Positions 1,474 to 11,482 of a DNA stretch of 11,741 nucleotides are shown here, in pieces. The translations under genes were made by a program, and so were the position numbers. The notes beneath the pieces are model-generated. The model had not been told where the DNA came from. It made no database searches and saw only the letters and a list, made by a program, of their open reading frames with translations. Source of the stretch: Candidatus Cloacimonadota bacterium (lineage in GTDB: Bacteria; Cloacimonadota; Cloacimonadia; JGIOTU-2; B8-G9); contig QMNM01000016.1 of NCBI GenBank assembly GCA_003647765.1, forward strand, positions 1 to 11,741. The letters run 5' to 3'. Within the stretch, counting starts at the first letter, position 1. Every line of letters begins with the position of its first letter.

Positions 1474-2127
1474 ATGAGATTTGAAGAACAACGAGAATTG
1501 ATGGTACAGGAACAGATTATTAGTCGTGGTATTACTGATGAGAAAGTGCTTGATGCAATGAGGAAAGTTGAAAGACATCTGTTTGTGCCTGAACATAGTA
1601 GATACAATGCTTATCAGGATTTCCCAATACCTATAGGTGAAGGACAGACCATTTCTCAGCCATATATTATTGCACTGATGATAGAACTTCTGGAATTGAA
1701 ATCTTCTGATAAAGTATTAGAAATTGGCACTGGCTCTGGATATCAAACAGCGTTATTGGCAGAGATGGCTGATACAGTTTGCTCTATTGAACGAATAGCT
1801 TCATTAGCCAGGAAAGCAAGAGATTTACTAAATAAATTGAATTATGAGAATATTTACATAAAAGTATCAGATGGAACAAAAGGATGGGGAAACACATATC
1901 CTTCAATAAAAGAATTTGATGCTATCATTATATCCGCAGGTGCACCTAAAATTCCAGAAAAATTAGTTGAACAATTAGCAAACAATGGAAGAATGATTTT
2001 ACCTTATGGAAATCGTTTTAGTCAAATTTTAACCCGTTTAACTAAAAGAGGAAATGATATAGATAGAGAAGAATTCGGTGGATGTATATTTGTACCTTTG
2101 ATAGGAAAATATGGATGGACTTATTAA
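1474..2127 (+). CDS. pcm: Protein-L-isoaspartate O-methyltransferase
   Basis: Pcm transfers a methyl group from S-adenosylmethionine to the alpha-carboxyl of isoaspartyl residues in aged proteins, starting their repair to aspartate; it is cytoplasmic. The 217 residues match the usual ~210. Family blocks appear in order: the N-terminal helix with RxxMVxEQIxxRGI (~7-20), FVPE (~37-40), the substrate-loop block GEGQTISQPYIIALM (55-69), the AdoMet motif I VLEIGTGSGYQTALLA (81-96), the acidic end of the second strand at SIER (~104-107), and FDAIIISAGAP (148-158). The ATG at 1474 has AGGAG at 1464-1468 with a 5-nt spacer. The gene sits 69 bp behind surE, its usual partner, and its 3' end overlaps the start region of the next membrane-protein gene, so all are probably one transcript. 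Confidence 0.97.
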   Translation: MRFEEQRELMVQEQIISRGITDEKVLDAMRKVERHLFVPEHSRYNAYQDFPIPIGEGQTISQPYIIALMIELLELKSSDKVLEIGTGSGYQTALLAEMADTVCSIERIASLARKARDLLNKLNYENIYIKVSDGTKGWGNTYPSIKEFDAIIISAGAPKIPEKLVEQLANNGRMILPYGNRFSQILTRLTKRGNDIDREEFGGCIFVPLIGKYGWTY

Positions 2128-2813
2128 GAAAAATGCAACGAAATGGATTCTACACATTACGCACTACGCACTATGCATCTCTGATAATTGCTTTATTGTT
2201 ATTAACTATCAATATTGTATGTTTTGCCCAAGAAAATCAAAAAGACGATAAAACAGGAAAAATTACACATTATTTAGAAAGCAAAAATATTCCCAATGAA
2301 CTGATTGTAACGAGTATAGCAACTTTGCCTATTTTTGAACTACGCGGAGCAATCCCTATTGGTATAAATTATTACAAAATTCATTGGCTAAAAACTTATA
2401 TACTCGCTGTTGTTGGCAATATGATTCCTATAATATTCGTATTGCTTTTCCTTAAATATATAACTAAAGTTCTTTATCCCATTCCAATTTTCAAAAGATT
2501 CTTTGATTGGCTATTTGCCAGGACACGGAAAAAAGGTAAAATCATTGAGAAATATGAGGAAATTGGACTAATTATTTTTGTAATGATCCCTCTGCCTGTA
2601 ACAGGTGCCTGGACTGGCTCTATTGCGGCATATCTTTTTGGCATAAACTTTTTTACATCTTTACTGTGCATTTTTATTGGCGTTTGTTTAGCAGGGATTA
2701 TTGTAACTACACTTAGCTTATTAGGAATTTGGGGAGCCGTTATTGCTACAATTGTATTATCTTTTCTTTTTATATCGTGGCTATACAGATATATTAAGGG
2801 ACGAAAAAGATAA
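2115..2813 (+). CDS. Small multidrug-export-family (COG2426) membrane protein with signal peptide
   Basis: From the ATG at 2115 the protein has 232 residues. A basic N-terminus (R5, K6, R9, R16) precedes a hydrophobic core at ~22-38 ending in CFA-Q, which looks like a signal peptide cleaved after A38. The mature part carries the blocks I recognise for the Sm_multidrug_ex family: SIATLPIFELRGAIPIGI (~67-84), a membrane segment ~94-113, an amphipathic KRFFDWLFARTRKKGK stretch, IPLPVTGAWTGS (~158-169) and two more membrane segments to the C-terminus. The family is named after a proposed export role, and real substrates are unclear. In-frame ATGs lie at 2082, 2115 and 2133; 2115 is preferred because AGGA at 2103-2106 precedes it by 8 nt, giving a 13-nt overlap with pcm. 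Residues 15-21 are encoded by three copies of the heptamer repeat. Confidence 0.8.
   Translation: MDLLRKMQRNGFYTLRTTHYASLIIALLLLTINIVCFAQENQKDDKTGKITHYLESKNIPNELIVTSIATLPIFELRGAIPIGINYYKIHWLKTYILAVVGNMIPIIFVLLFLKYITKVLYPIPIFKRFFDWLFARTRKKGKIIEKYEEIGLIIFVMIPLPVTGAWTGSIAAYLFGINFFTSLLCIFIGVCLAGIIVTTLSLLGIWGAVIATIVLSFLFISWLYRYIKGRKR
2156..2176 (-). repeat. Heptamer array (3 units) inside coding sequence
   Basis: The units ATTACGC, ACTACGC and ACTATGC are the reverse complement of the GCGTAAT/GCGTAGT family found between genes elsewhere in the window. Three units make 21 bases, exactly seven codons, so the array leaves the membrane-protein frame open. It encodes LRTTHYA just ahead of the signal-peptide hydrophobic core. 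Confidence 0.85.
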
Positions 2814-4507: not shown

Positions 4508-4539
4508 AATTAGGATAGAAACAAATGGACATACAAAAT

Positions 4540-4581
4540 GCGTAGTGCGTAATGCGTAATGCGTAGTGCGTAATGCGTAAA
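4540..4581 (+). repeat. Heptamer array, 6 units of GCGTARt
   Basis: Six head-to-tail 7-mers run without interruption: GCGTAGT, GCGTAAT, GCGTAAT, GCGTAGT, GCGTAAT and a final GCGTAAA. This is the longest array of the family in the window. It lies between the AI-2E permease stop and the SPT-like start, directly before the CACAGAG repeat block. The design resembles the short tandemly repeated heptamers (STRR) known from cyanobacteria; relatedness is not implied. Confidence 0.95.
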
Positions 4582-4583
4582 TT

Positions 4584-4635
4584 CACCACAGAGACACGGA
4601 GGGCACAGAGAGAGAATTATGCCACAGAGAACACA
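4584..4635 (+). repeat. CACAGAG/ACACGGAG repeat block
   Basis: The block starts CACCACAGAGACACGGAG, continues with GGCACAGAGAGAG, and ends with GCCACAGAGAACACAG (4621-4636). It is purine-rich on one strand and G+C-richer than its surroundings. It contains no reading frame. A second copy of the last part, with one difference over 15 bases, lies at 11460-11475. From memory, similar CCACAGAGACACAGAG strings are scattered in intergenic DNA of many environmental bacteria. Confidence 0.8.
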
Positions 4636-4656
4636 GCGTAATGCGTAGTGCGTAAC
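4636..4656 (+). repeat. Heptamer array, 3 units
   Basis: GCGTAAT, GCGTAGT and GCGTAAC follow the CACAGAG block without a break; the G at 4636 is shared by both. The CACAGAG block is therefore flanked on both sides by heptamer arrays in the same orientation, as if it had been inserted into an array or the two had spread together. Confidence 0.9.
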
Positions 4657-5888: not shown

Positions 5889-5896
5889 ACACAATT

Positions 5897-5910
5897 TTTA
5901 CGCACTACGC
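5897..5910 (-). repeat. Heptamer pair, reverse orientation
   Basis: TTTACGC followed by ACTACGC is the reverse complement of GCGTAGT-GCGTAAA. It sits nine bases after the SPT-like stop codon, in the 65-bp gap before the ABC ATPase gene. Only two units remain, so on its own it would be weak; it is accepted because the same family is abundant in the other gaps. Confidence 0.7.
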
Positions 5911-5953
5911 TATACTATAACTTATTATTAGCACTATAAGGATTAAGATAAAA

Positions 5954-6619: not shown

Positions 6620-6622
6620 AAA

Positions 6623-6657
6623 GCGTAATGCGTAAAGCGTAGGGCGTAATGCGTAAT
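6623..6657 (+). repeat. Heptamer array, 5 units, ahead of glyS
   Basis: The units are GCGTAAT, GCGTAAA, GCGTAGG, GCGTAAT and GCGTAAT, beginning three bases after the ABC ATPase stop codon. Two units are degenerate, so this array looks older than the one at 4540. The ATG at 6649-6651 is formed across a unit junction (..AAT-GCG..) and is in frame with glyS, which makes a false longer N-terminus possible in automatic annotation. Confidence 0.92.
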
Positions 6658-6704
6658 GCCAGTTATAGAAAATCAGGATGCCGTAATCATAAATTCTCTA
6701 AACT

Positions 6705-6714
6705 AAGGAAGGAG
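6705..6714 (+). promoter_or_regulatory. Ribosome binding site deciding the glyS start
   Basis: AAGGAAGGAG is a strong purine-rich Shine-Dalgarno stretch with no ATG after it. It lies 3 nt before a TTG (6718) and 6 nt before a CTG (6721), both in the glyS frame; counting from its first AGGA the spacing to the TTG is 8 nt. Family alignment also puts the start here, so glyS most likely uses the TTG. Confidence 0.8.
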
Positions 6715-6717
6715 CAA

Positions 6718-8811
6718 TTGCTGAACAAAAAATTTTTATTAGAAATTGGAGTTGAGGAGGTTCCATCTTCTATTATTAAAGATGCAATGGATTTTATAGA
6801 AGTTTTTTTTGTTAAGAATTTGATGAATAGTCGTCTACATTTTACAGAAATGAAAAGATATTCCACGCCACGACGATTTGCAATAACGATTTTTGGATTA
6901 CCAGACAAACAAGAGGATTTAATTGAAGAAGTAATGGGTCCACCTGCAAAAATTTCTTATGATAAACAAGGCAATCTTACTAAAGCAGGTCTGGGCTTCT
7001 TGAAAAGTAAAAATGCTAAACAAGAGGATATTTACCTTAAACAAACTGATAAAGGAAAATATTTAGCATTAAAAAAGATTATTTATGGAAAGGATACAAC
7101 TGAAATATTAGGACAGATAATTCCACAACTCATTGAGCAAATACCTTTCAAAAAATCAATGAAATGGGGAACTAACAAGTTAACTTTTGTACGACCTATT
7201 CGTTGGATACTTGCCCTATTAAATGAACAAGTGATTTCAGTTAAATTAGAAGATATTTGCTCTGATAGAATTACTTTTGGTAATCGTTTTGAAAATTTGG
7301 ATAACACAATTATAATCAATAATGTGGATGAATATGAGAATAAACTAATGCAACATTTTGTTATCCCAAATGTTGAAAAAAGAAAAGAACTCATAAAGCA
7401 ACAAGTGAAAGCGATTGAAAATGAAATTCATGGAAAAATTGCTGATGAGAAATTGTTTGATACTGTAACCAATCTTGTAGAATATCCATTAGCGATTTTA
7501 TGTAAATTTGATAAAGCATTTCTTAATCTGCCACAAGAAATTTTGATCACTACTCTAACTGAGACACAAAAATATTTTGCATTAAAAGGTTATGACAATA
7601 AATTACTCCCTTACTTTATATGTATAAGCAATGGTAGTCCACAAGCAAAGGATAATATTAGATATGGTAATGAAAAAGTAATTCGTGCTCGTCTATCTGA
7701 CGCTAAATTTTATTATGATGAAGACCAGAAAGTTCCTTTACATAGCAGAATTGAGCAATTGAATAAGATAGTATATCAAGAAAAATTAGGTACTTTATAC
7801 GAAAAGAGTATTCGTATGCAAAAAATAGGTAAATTTTTAGCAAAGGAACTGAATGTTTCACCAGAGAAAGTCATCCGAGCTGCAATGCTATCCAAAGCAG
7901 ATTTGACAACATTGATGCTTAATGAGAAGGAATACACATCATTACAGGGATTTATTGGCTATCAATACGCTCTAAATGACGGTGAAAATGAGGAAGTAGC
8001 AAAAGCAATTTATGAGCAATATCTACCGAAATTTAAAAATGATATATTGCCAAACACAAATACAGGTATAATATTATCTCTTGCAGAGAAGATTGATAAT
8101 ATTGTTAGCTGCTTTTGTGTTGGACTAATTCCAAGCGGTTCTAATGACCCTTTTGCTTTGCGAAGAGCCGCACAAGGAATATTGAAAATTTTGTATAATT
8201 ATAAAATCAATCTGAATTTAGAAAAAGTATTTATATTCACACTTGATATCTTACAGGACAAAATCATTTCTGAAAAAGGGAAAGTCAAAATGCAAATTGA
8301 TGATTTTCTCCAACAGAGAATCAAAACATTTCTTTCTGACCCTGATATAATTGGTGTTGAATACGATGTAATTGATGCTGTGATGGCAGGAGATTTTTAT
8401 CATATTTTGGATTTAACACGAAGAGCAGAAGATTTACAAGCATTTAAAAATAGAAATGACTTCCGAAGATTGGTTATTGGCTATAAAAGAGTGGCTAATA
8501 TTTTGATGAGTTCACAATCTGAAAATGAATTGGATATATCGTTGTTTCAGGAAGATGCAGAAAAATCACTCTATCAAAAGATAATGCTAATTAAACCAGA
8601 ATTTGAGACGGAGTTGTACAAAAAAAATTATCACAGAATTTTTGAATTACTTCTCTCTTGTCGCACAGAAATTGATAATCTGTTTGACAATGTGATGATA
8701 ATGGTAAAAGATAAAAAAATAAGAGAGAATAGAATGGCACTATTACGAATGGTAAAGAGCTTATTTTTAAAAGGAGCAGATTTATCAAAATTAGTTGTGG
8801 AAGGGGTGTAA
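6718..8811 (+). CDS. glyS: Glycyl-tRNA synthetase beta subunit
   Basis: GlyS is the tRNA-binding beta subunit of the bacterial alpha2beta2 glycyl-tRNA synthetase, which charges tRNA-Gly in the cytoplasm together with the catalytic alpha subunit GlyQ. From the TTG at 6718 the protein has 697 residues, close to the usual ~690. It begins with the family opening FLLEIGVEEVP. YSTPRRFA, a GPPAK block, MKWG and FVRPIRWILALL follow. The HD-like region has KADLTTLMLNEKEYTSLQGFIG, LAEKIDNIVSCFCVGLIPSGSNDPFALRRAAQGI follows it, and an anticodon-binding C-terminus ends near RMALLRMVKSLF. An in-frame ATG at 6649 would add 23 residues coded by repeat DNA (MRNASYRKSG..); it is rejected because the family starts at FLLEIG and the only strong ribosome site is at 6705-6714. 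glyQ, usually adjacent, is not in this window. Confidence 0.95.
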   Translation: MLNKKFLLEIGVEEVPSSIIKDAMDFIEVFFVKNLMNSRLHFTEMKRYSTPRRFAITIFGLPDKQEDLIEEVMGPPAKISYDKQGNLTKAGLGFLKSKNAKQEDIYLKQTDKGKYLALKKIIYGKDTTEILGQIIPQLIEQIPFKKSMKWGTNKLTFVRPIRWILALLNEQVISVKLEDICSDRITFGNRFENLDNTIIINNVDEYENKLMQHFVIPNVEKRKELIKQQVKAIENEIHGKIADEKLFDTVTNLVEYPLAILCKFDKAFLNLPQEILITTLTETQKYFALKGYDNKLLPYFICISNGSPQAKDNIRYGNEKVIRARLSDAKFYYDEDQKVPLHSRIEQLNKIVYQEKLGTLYEKSIRMQKIGKFLAKELNVSPEKVIRAAMLSKADLTTLMLNEKEYTSLQGFIGYQYALNDGENEEVAKAIYEQYLPKFKNDILPNTNTGIILSLAEKIDNIVSCFCVGLIPSGSNDPFALRRAAQGILKILYNYKINLNLEKVFIFTLDILQDKIISEKGKVKMQIDDFLQQRIKTFLSDPDIIGVEYDVIDAVMAGDFYHILDLTRRAEDLQAFKNRNDFRRLVIGYKRVANILMSSQSENELDISLFQEDAEKSLYQKIMLIKPEFETELYKKNYHRIFELLLSCRTEIDNLFDNVMIMVKDKKIRENRMALLRMVKSLFLKGADLSKLVVEGV

Positions 8812-8813
8812 TT

Positions 8814-9209
8814 ATGCAAACTATATCAGTAAGCACAAAAGGCAGATTTGATTTTGTAGAAATAACTCATCAAATACGAGAAGTTGTGAGAGAATCAGGA
8901 GTAAAAAATGGGATTTGTGTAGTATATGCTCCTCATACAACTGCTGGTATAACTATCAATGAAGGAGCGGATTTTTCTGTTAGAAAGGATATACTAAAAG
9001 AGTTGGATAAGATTATTCCTCTTGATGATAATTACAGTCATTTAGAAGGGAATTCAGCAGCTCATATAAAATCCAGTATTATCGGATGCAGTGAACAACT
9101 CATTATTGAGAATGGAGATTTGGTATTAGGCACTTGGCAATCATTGTATTTTTGTGAATTTGACGGTCCCAGAAATAGAAAAGTGTATGTAAAAATTATT
9201 GAAGAATGA
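8814..9209 (+). CDS. yjbQ: YjbQ family protein (UPF0047)
   Basis: The 131-residue protein covers the whole UPF0047/YjbQ domain. Signature blocks are YAPHTTAGITINEGAD (38-53), HLEGNSAAHIKSSIIG (76-91) and LGTWQSLYFCEFDGPRNRKV (105-124). The conserved histidines H41, H76 and H84 and the TWQ-FxExDGPR end are in place, consistent with the metal-site trimer seen in family structures. Members have been annotated as secondary thiamine-phosphate synthase because overexpression of E. coli YjbQ can give thiamine-phosphate synthase activity; the physiological role is uncertain. The ATG follows the glyS stop by two bases with GGAAGGGG at 8799-8806 (7-nt spacing), so it is cotranscribed and probably coupled with glyS. 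It is the last gene of the rightward series. Confidence 0.95.
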   Translation: MQTISVSTKGRFDFVEITHQIREVVRESGVKNGICVVYAPHTTAGITINEGADFSVRKDILKELDKIIPLDDNYSHLEGNSAAHIKSSIIGCSEQLIIENGDLVLGTWQSLYFCEFDGPRNRKVYVKIIEE

Positions 9210-9310: not shown

Positions 9311-9347
9311 TATGATTTACTATTGTAATTATTGCTATAATTATTTC

Positions 9348-9360
9348 ATCCCTACGGGAT
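9348..9360. repeat. Triloop mini-palindrome 2
   Basis: ATCCC-TAC-GGGAT is a perfect 5-bp inverted repeat with the same TAC loop, preceded by TATTTC. It starts 50 bp after copy 1 and 54 bp before copy 3. Confidence 0.75.
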
Positions 9361-9401
9361 TACAGAGGCAAAATCAATAAGAATATTCTGGAAAGTATCT
9401 C

Positions 9402-9420
9402 ATCCCTATGGGATTTTTTT
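9402..9420 (+). repeat. Triloop mini-palindrome 3, with T-run (possible terminator)
   Basis: ATCCC-TAT-GGGAT (9402-9414) repeats the pattern of copies 1 and 2, preceded by TATCTC, and runs into seven T residues (9414-9420). The stem plus T-run could act as a weak Rho-independent terminator for yjbQ transcripts, though it lies about 190 bases after the stop. A 5-bp stem is short for that role. Confidence 0.5.
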
Positions 9421-9424
9421 CACA

Positions 9425-9463
9425 GAAACTCGACTCGGGTTCTTTGAACTCGAGTCGGGTTTC
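9425..9463. other. 18-bp hairpin between convergent genes
   Basis: The left arm 9425-9442 (GAAACTCGACTCGGGTTC) and right arm 9446-9463 (GAACTCGAGTCGGGTTTC) pair over all 18 positions with only two G-T pairs, closing on a TTT loop. It is markedly G+C-richer than its surroundings. The arms also read as near-direct repeats (ACTCGACTCGGGTT and ACTCGAGTCGGGTT). Its place between yjbQ and the leftward phosphatase gene suggests a bidirectional transcription or mRNA-end barrier, but neither side has a T-run outside the stem, so it is not a textbook intrinsic terminator. Confidence 0.7.
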
Positions 9464-9469
9464 ACGGTT

Positions 9470-9491: not shown

Positions 9492-10268
9492 TTACTTCTC
9501 ATTTAATACAGAGAGCATTTGTTGATGTATAATGCCATTACTTGCAATGATTTTCTTATCAAAGATATTGAATTCTGTGCCATCAAATTTTGTAATTTTT
9601 CCACCTGCTTCTTGGACAATTACCATAGCTGCGGCTGTATCCCAAGGATGAAGTTTTAATTCCCAAAATCCGTCAAATATACCATTAGCCAGATAGCATA
9701 AATCTAAAGCAGCGCTTCCAGCTCTGCGTATTGCCATACATTTCATTATCATTCTCGCAAAATGATCCAAATTATTCTCTTTGCTTACTGCAACATCATA
9801 AGGAAATCCTGTTGCTAAAAATGCTTTGCTTAACTTATTCGTTTGTGATACACATATTTTTTTATTACCCACGAAACTACCTTCACCTTTTATTCCCCAA
9901 AATAGTTCATCTAAAATAGGATTATATACTATTCCAATTACACTTTCGCCTTTGATTTGCAATCCTACGGAAACTGCTACAAAAGGAAACCGATGAGCAT
10001 AATTTGTCGTGCCATCTAAAGGATCAATAACCCAGCAATATTCAATATTTTTATCAATAGTAGTTTTGGTCTCTTCTGTTAATATATTATGTTCAGGAAA
10101 ATGCTTACGAATTATCCTCATTATTTCTTGTTCTGCTTCTCTATCCACATTTGTAACTATATCTATTCTTCCTTTATATTCTATTTTTTTCTGCTTCAAA
10201 AAGTTATCTTTTAATATTTTCCCAGCTGACAAAGCAGACTGCTTAGCAATCTTAAAATATTTATACAT
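9492..10268 (-). CDS. suhB: Inositol-1-monophosphatase family protein
   Basis: This 258-residue protein belongs to the Mg-dependent, lithium-sensitive phosphatase family of SuhB/IMPase. Metal-site motifs are intact: E65-E66 in LTEET, D82 and D85 in WVIDPLDGTTNYAHRFPF (79-96) and D210 in HPWDTAAAMVIVQEAGG (207-223). RRAGSAALDLCYLANGIFDGFWE (181-203) is the substrate-side block typical of SuhB-like members. It would remove phosphate from myo-inositol 1-phosphate or a similar sugar phosphate; 3'-phosphoadenosine phosphatase (CysQ) and fructose bisphosphatase activities occur in related families, so the substrate is not settled. The ATG overlaps the coaBC stop by 8 bases (ATGTATAA), indicating one leftward transcript with coupled translation. 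The symbol reflects family resemblance, not proven orthology. Confidence 0.9.
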   Translation of the reverse strand: MYKYFKIAKQSALSAGKILKDNFLKQKKIEYKGRIDIVTNVDREAEQEIMRIIRKHFPEHNILTEETKTTIDKNIEYCWVIDPLDGTTNYAHRFPFVAVSVGLQIKGESVIGIVYNPILDELFWGIKGEGSFVGNKKICVSQTNKLSKAFLATGFPYDVAVSKENNLDHFARMIMKCMAIRRAGSAALDLCYLANGIFDGFWELKLHPWDTAAAMVIVQEAGGKITKFDGTEFNIFDKKIIASNGIIHQQMLSVLNEK

Positions 10269-11459: not shown

Positions 11460-11482
11460 AGCCACAGAGGACACAAAGTAAT
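11460..11482 (+). repeat. Second CACAGAG copy
   Basis: AGCCACAGAGGACACAAAG followed by TAAT matches the element at 4621-4642 with few differences: GCCACAGAG then A or G, then ACACA, then a degenerate junction, then GTAAT. It lies 14 bases upstream of the coaBC start, on the opposite strand to that gene. Confidence 0.7.

Follow-up and report, generated by a model that had tools for sequence, protein, structure and literature searches.

How a short tandem repeat comes to lie within the coding sequence of an export signal, and whether it is read there as protein, is the question raised by a membrane protein gene in the window, the 11,741-nucleotide stretch of DNA that we analyzed. The window comes from contig 16 of the 1.97-Mb, fragmented genome of a Candidatus Cloacimonadota bacterium. 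The array and its immediate surroundings consist of the following features.

1474 to 2127, forward strand: pcm, protein-L-isoaspartate O-methyltransferase (PF01135, E 4e-60; NF001453 above cutoff)
2103 to 2106, forward strand: Shine-Dalgarno-like AGGA, 8 nt 5' of ATG 2115 (read from sequence)
2115 to 2813, forward strand: COG2426/PF06695 membrane protein gene (putative small multidrug export), 232 aa from ATG 2115 (Pfam PF06695, E 7e-41)
2115 to 2150, forward strand: start and basic n-region 5' of the array, MDLLRKMQRNGF (sequence, homologues)
2150 to 2177, forward strand: heptamer array of four degenerate units, CTACACA TTACGCA CTACGCA CTATGCA, encoding YTLRTTHYA (TRF; core scan)
2178 to 2228, forward strand: hydrophobic core and end of the signal-peptide-like segment, SLIIALLLLTINIVCFA (hydropathy scan, alignment)

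The protein scores 140 bits against the PF06695 Sm_multidrug_ex profile, for which the cutoff is 30.7, and its signal-peptide-like N terminus reads MDLLRKMQRNGF[YTLRTTHYA]SLIIALLLLTINIVCFAQ. Together, TRF, the profile match, and the sequence bear out the original prediction that a heptamer array stands in frame in a COG2426 gene, just before the hydrophobic core. That prediction had also described three heptamers encoding LRTTHYA. The peptide is indeed encoded, by positions 2157 to 2177 (TTACGCA CTACGCA CTATGCA), but TRF resolves the 28 nt at 2150 to 2177 into four 7-base units; the first unit contributes YT, and the full segment, YTLRTTHYA, spans 2151 to 2177. Because four units do not make a multiple of three bases, the frame must be kept by something other than the 21 bases of "three heptamers" to which it had been attributed. 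The four units all differ, with adjacent ones identical at five to six of seven positions. In an array scan against the core TACGC, 18 of 20 core positions matched, and the first unit, CTACACA, agreed at four of five.

The start of the gene is constrained by its upstream neighbor. The pcm stop and the COG2426 start overlap by 13 nt, and in homologues with the same gene order, the COG2426 ATG overlaps the end of pcm at a place equivalent to ATG 2115. At this junction one homologue reads ...YVCPPYWTIW-MERVKRIIFIIILL, compared with ...YICTFDRKIW-MDLLRKMQRNGF[YTLRTTHYA]SLIIALLLL in the window. A second in-frame ATG, at 2133, is likewise upstream of the array. Downstream of the array, where a translation start would have spoken against the original prediction, we found no credible start codon; the first start-like triplet there is a TTG that falls within the hydrophobic core. 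The array must therefore be translated if the protein keeps its N-terminal hydrophobic segment or is exported.

Comparison with relatives suggests that the array is an addition. The window protein belongs with the PF06695/COG2426 family by its domain match and is unlike it in having an n-region that is longer owing to the array. By one hydropathy rule, 0 to 10 residues precede the hydrophobic core in 26 aligned homologues versus 18 in the window protein. None of these 26 contains the heptapeptide, whose conservation among homologues had been named as a reason to abandon the idea of an insertion. The excess length relative to most homologues is about 15 to 16 residues, nine of which are accounted for by the array. 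Since the natural n-region of one relative (L003) is about 10 residues long, part of the excess may be ancestral.

The window array is one member of a family, GCGTANN/NNTACGC, and represents its readable (stop-free NNTACGC) strand. In the 1.10 Mb of the genome that we read for array scans, the family comprises 57 separate arrays of 3 to 17 units on 39 contigs, that is, 7-nt tandem units at many loci, as expected of a dispersed heptanucleotide tandem repeat (STRR-like). The two free positions are mostly AT, GT, GG, GA, AG, or AA. Across the whole genome, GCGTANN yielded 250 overlapping three-unit matches. A backward-read pattern used as a control gave 10 matches each way genome-wide and 9 in the 1.10-Mb scan; these matches probably trace to the same arrays, since an NN of AT makes ATGCG recur as well. 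Arrays of period 7 far outnumber those of periods 5, 6, and 8 to 10, and further heptamer families (AACAACT, TTCTGNC, ATTAGAA, and others) are present. Among 124 genomes of the phylum, four exact units are abundant in the source genome only (90 forward, 99 reverse), while two others have one to two. A plasmid search returned a single weak Burkholderia record, and viral contigs contained 12 stretches with four exact units. A CACAGAG repeat lies within 120 nt of 17 of the 57 arrays, compared with 2.9% of random positions.

Three other arrays of the family occur in the window itself (TRF, array scan).

4537 to 4580, forward strand: intergenic GCGTANN array, opposite in orientation to the window array, in the gap between an AI-2E transporter gene and a PLP-enzyme gene
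4636 to 4655, forward strand: second small GCGTANN array, adjoining CACAGAG repeats
6620 to 6659, forward strand: GCGTANN array immediately 3' of an ABC-ATPase stop codon and extending into the 5' end of the next gene

CACAGAG-type repeats (CCACAGAGACACGGAGGGCACAGAG) at 4583 to 4636 and 11461 to 11477 accompany the heptamer arrays, and degenerate TACGC-type heptamers (TTACGCACTACGCTATAC) directly follow the 3' end of the PLP-dependent enzyme gene (5895 to 5922). In the region 6649 to 6720, the longest reading frame of a glycyl-tRNA-synthetase-like gene (named from sequence) begins at an ATG within the heptamer array; TTG 6718, which has AGGAG 5' of it, may be its true start. Elsewhere in the window are a short palindromic intergenic repeat, two copies of TCATCCCTAYGGGATT (9339 to 9415), and an inverted repeat, AACTCGACTCGGGTTC...GAACTCGAGTCGGGTT, between convergent genes (9429 to 9465), possibly a terminator or a repeat.

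Most arrays avoid genes. Using a simple home-made gene caller (869 genes, coding fraction 0.85), we placed 34 of the 57 arrays between genes, 14 across gene ends, and 9 wholly within called genes; the family is thus mostly noncoding, as in STRR-like repeats. It also shares their strand bias: GCGTA is on the coding strand in 34 of the 43 arrays close to the 3' end of a gene. Ten of these 34 extend into the last codons of the gene, where the stop codon is array derived in nearly all cases. At least 10 genes have GCGTANN arrays running into their 3' ends (on L163, L166, L182, L190, L102, L118, L156, L159, L070, and L160). The distribution of stop codons between the strands explains the bias around genes: GCGTAAN and GCGTAGN carry TAA or TAG, and the complement, NNTACGC, is stop free. 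Since 7 and 3 share no common factor, the stops of the one strand fall in every frame within 21 bases, and NNTACGC gives the same cyclic heptapeptide, L-R-x-T-H-Y-A (LRxTHYA), in all three frames.

Much of this has precedent. The TAACTGA repeats of marine Beggiatoaceae, cyanobacteria, and Bacteroidetes are likewise dispersed, mainly intergenic tandem heptamers with stops on one strand and a repeating heptapeptide on the other; the same stop-strand/translatable-strand argument has already been made for them, and its authors anticipated that such repeats would be tolerated at protein termini (PMC4679880). The GCGTANN family differs in its heptamer, in having two free positions, and in that several arrays of the source genome lie precisely in signal-peptide n-regions. 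Hundreds of dispersed degenerate arrays are also formed by the G-rich GGGAATC/GGGGAYT repeats of Xanthomonas and Nostoc, along with three tandem heptanucleotides of Calothrix (PMC4692102). The strand bias of GCGTANN around genes agrees with that of the Xanthomonas and Nostoc heptamers, which favor the coding strand downstream of or overlapping stops and the noncoding strand upstream of starts (PMC4692102), but GCGTANN lacks a G run, and no quadruplex is expected. Rickettsia palindromic elements similarly appear as a genomic repeat recurrently in frame within unrelated genes (PMC10969869). They are palindromic, about 150 bp long, and carry a conserved open reading frame, whereas the window array is 28 nt without palindrome or structure and so lacks the palindrome or stable hairpin of about 100 to 150 nt that marks Rickettsia-type elements (fold z = +0.91). 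The repeat class, the strand bias, and the in-frame capture of repeats are therefore all known in kind (PMC4679880, PMC4692102, PMC10969869). The recurrent niche in signal-peptide n-regions appears to be a new detail: a narrow search of the literature on repeats in n-regions found no description of it, and neither the array sequence nor the heptapeptide gave a match when searched for in the literature.

The same placement recurs in three other genes of this genome, where a heptamer array occupies precisely the interval from the start to the hydrophobic core.

L163, from 1283: ABC-auxiliary lipoprotein (PF03886), MKRF[FTLHALRITPYA]LLFLFLISC, with a GCGTANN family array in the signal peptide
L163, array at 1909 to 1945: gene adjoining the lipoprotein gene, MIN[KQLTTNNYH]FFIFLFIWLLNVVFA, with AACAACT, an unrelated heptamer family
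L174: C25-family peptidase, MKKIFA[LRSTHYPLRSTHYALRITL]LLTAFIILITTSLSFS, with a heptamer array in the signal peptide

Judged by where matches start, homology to relatives sets in at the end of the array, after it, or in its last residues. Matches to the lipoprotein begin mostly at residues 15 to 18, with one same-order match at 11; those to the adjoining gene begin at residues 11 to 14 or 32 to 33; and those to the peptidase begin at residues 17 to 31. Against about 4 units in the window array, there are about 3.5, 5, and 8 in the siblings, which does not fit the expected variation in steps of three heptamers. By a simple rule, n-regions make up about 0.5% of coding bases; of the roughly 15 clear heptamer arrays in reliable genes, 4 fall there. 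The probability of this by chance is about 1e-6 (6e-5 with the niche tripled) in a post hoc test for which the gene calls, signal-peptide calls, and list of 15 arrays were home-made.

Arrays also persist elsewhere in coding sequence. An archease gene contains an internal five-unit array (FRHTPYALRIMP); its matches to four relatives cover 136 codons versus 150 here, with the matched homologues about 14 residues shorter, and in a PDB search with the archease insertion the alignment was confined to the part after the array. Where genic arrays lie on the stop-bearing strand, GCGAA replaces GCGTA at critical units, and stops are so avoided, as in genes for a UvrD-like helicase (L082), a 979-aa frame (L178), and an 1870-aa frame with 13 units (L077). 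This stop avoidance, as read from the sequence, indicates that segments on the stop-bearing strand are really translated. The helicase gene has two such arrays with GCGAA units (8555 to 8587 and 9939 to 9957). In the 1870-aa frame (contig 11), the 13-unit GCGAANN array at 8872 to 8960 encodes EERRAKSEMRKAKSEERNAKGEERRAKS, and the T-to-A change abolishes the stops expected from GCGTANN.

We conclude that the window array probably arose when a dispersed heptanucleotide repeat was captured passively in a permissive basic segment that precedes the hydrophobic core. Several findings support capture: the array keeps the reading frame, it is one of a genome-wide family, homologues lack it, and the only usable starts lie upstream of it. 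A further one is that only 9 of the 57 arrays fall wholly in genes, even with 85% of the sequence coding. Capture is reinforced by three independent siblings at the equivalent position, and the proposal that a repeat insertion was captured as coding sequence in a signal-peptide n-region has thereby gained support. A GCGTANN repeat, accumulating between genes in this lineage, would have inserted or grown in the 5' end of the signal-peptide-like N terminus and been retained there because it was harmless. The heptapeptide would add an arginine and a histidine and no acidic residue, lengthening the basic n-region with its positive charge unspoiled. The export machinery would presumably tolerate the extra residues, which may be lost with the signal peptide or left in the cytoplasm. 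Purifying selection would purge most coding arrays, with survivors at signal-peptide n-regions, loops, and gene ends.

Other explanations account for parts of these observations. That the periodicity arose by chance might be suggested by so short and degenerate an array, but it can be dismissed: 20 Mb of sequence simulated with an order-4 Markov model trained on the source genome contained no four-unit array scoring at least 18/20 and no three-unit array scoring at least 14/15, versus 181 and 228 overlapping windows, respectively, in the real 1.10 Mb. Nothing beyond the oddness of the array suggests that it is untranslated 5' sequence with the true start downstream. This is highly improbable given that the next candidate is the TTG within the hydrophobic core, that the conserved pcm overlap sets the start at 2115, and that the L163 lipoprotein gene has no start codon from its array to the lipobox cysteine.

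The arrays could instead work as phase-variation (contingency) switches, in which gaining or losing one heptamer through slippage would move the frame just after the start and toggle surface and secreted proteins. A heptamer is not divisible into whole codons, the arrays are at gene 5' ends, the affected genes encode exported proteins, and two siblings have near-perfect, slippable units (AACAACT three times in L163 and an alternating 14-mer in L174). The identical tandem units of a contingency locus are absent from the window array, however; its four differing units disfavor slippage and are too degenerate for a good switch, and the majority of arrays are intergenic, away from starts. We consider a switch unlikely overall, though some siblings with regular units may work in this way. 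A DNA or RNA regulatory element, as proposed for the TAACTGA or G-rich heptamer repeats, might overlap the coding start by coincidence, in keeping with the proximity of arrays to gene ends and a strand bias like that in Xanthomonas and Nostoc. Yet RNA folding around the window array is unremarkable, promoter-like matches are no commoner there than in shuffles, no terminator signal was seen, and stop codons on one strand account for the bias, which leaves little probability for such an element.

Under passive capture, the COG2426 export signal appears to have been lengthened by about nine residues through an in-frame heptamer repeat, and at least three other export signals seem to have undergone the same event; the site therefore seems tolerant of such insertions. 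More tentatively, and with considerable doubt, signal-peptide n-regions may be a general recurrent niche for heptamers, where a stop-free strand and a basic, frame-independent heptapeptide lengthen export signals and some arrays also serve as frame switches. The locus offers a clean, repeated case of noncoding repeats turned protein sequence. It also carries a warning for gene callers, as arrays in the source genome provide stop codons and possibly false starts. The survival rule that it suggests has three elements, namely a strand without stops, a basic peptide that is the same in every frame, and a signal-peptide segment that tolerates additions, and is testable across repeat-rich genomes. 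If n-regions are indeed such a niche, repeat-rich genomes would keep lengthening their export signals.
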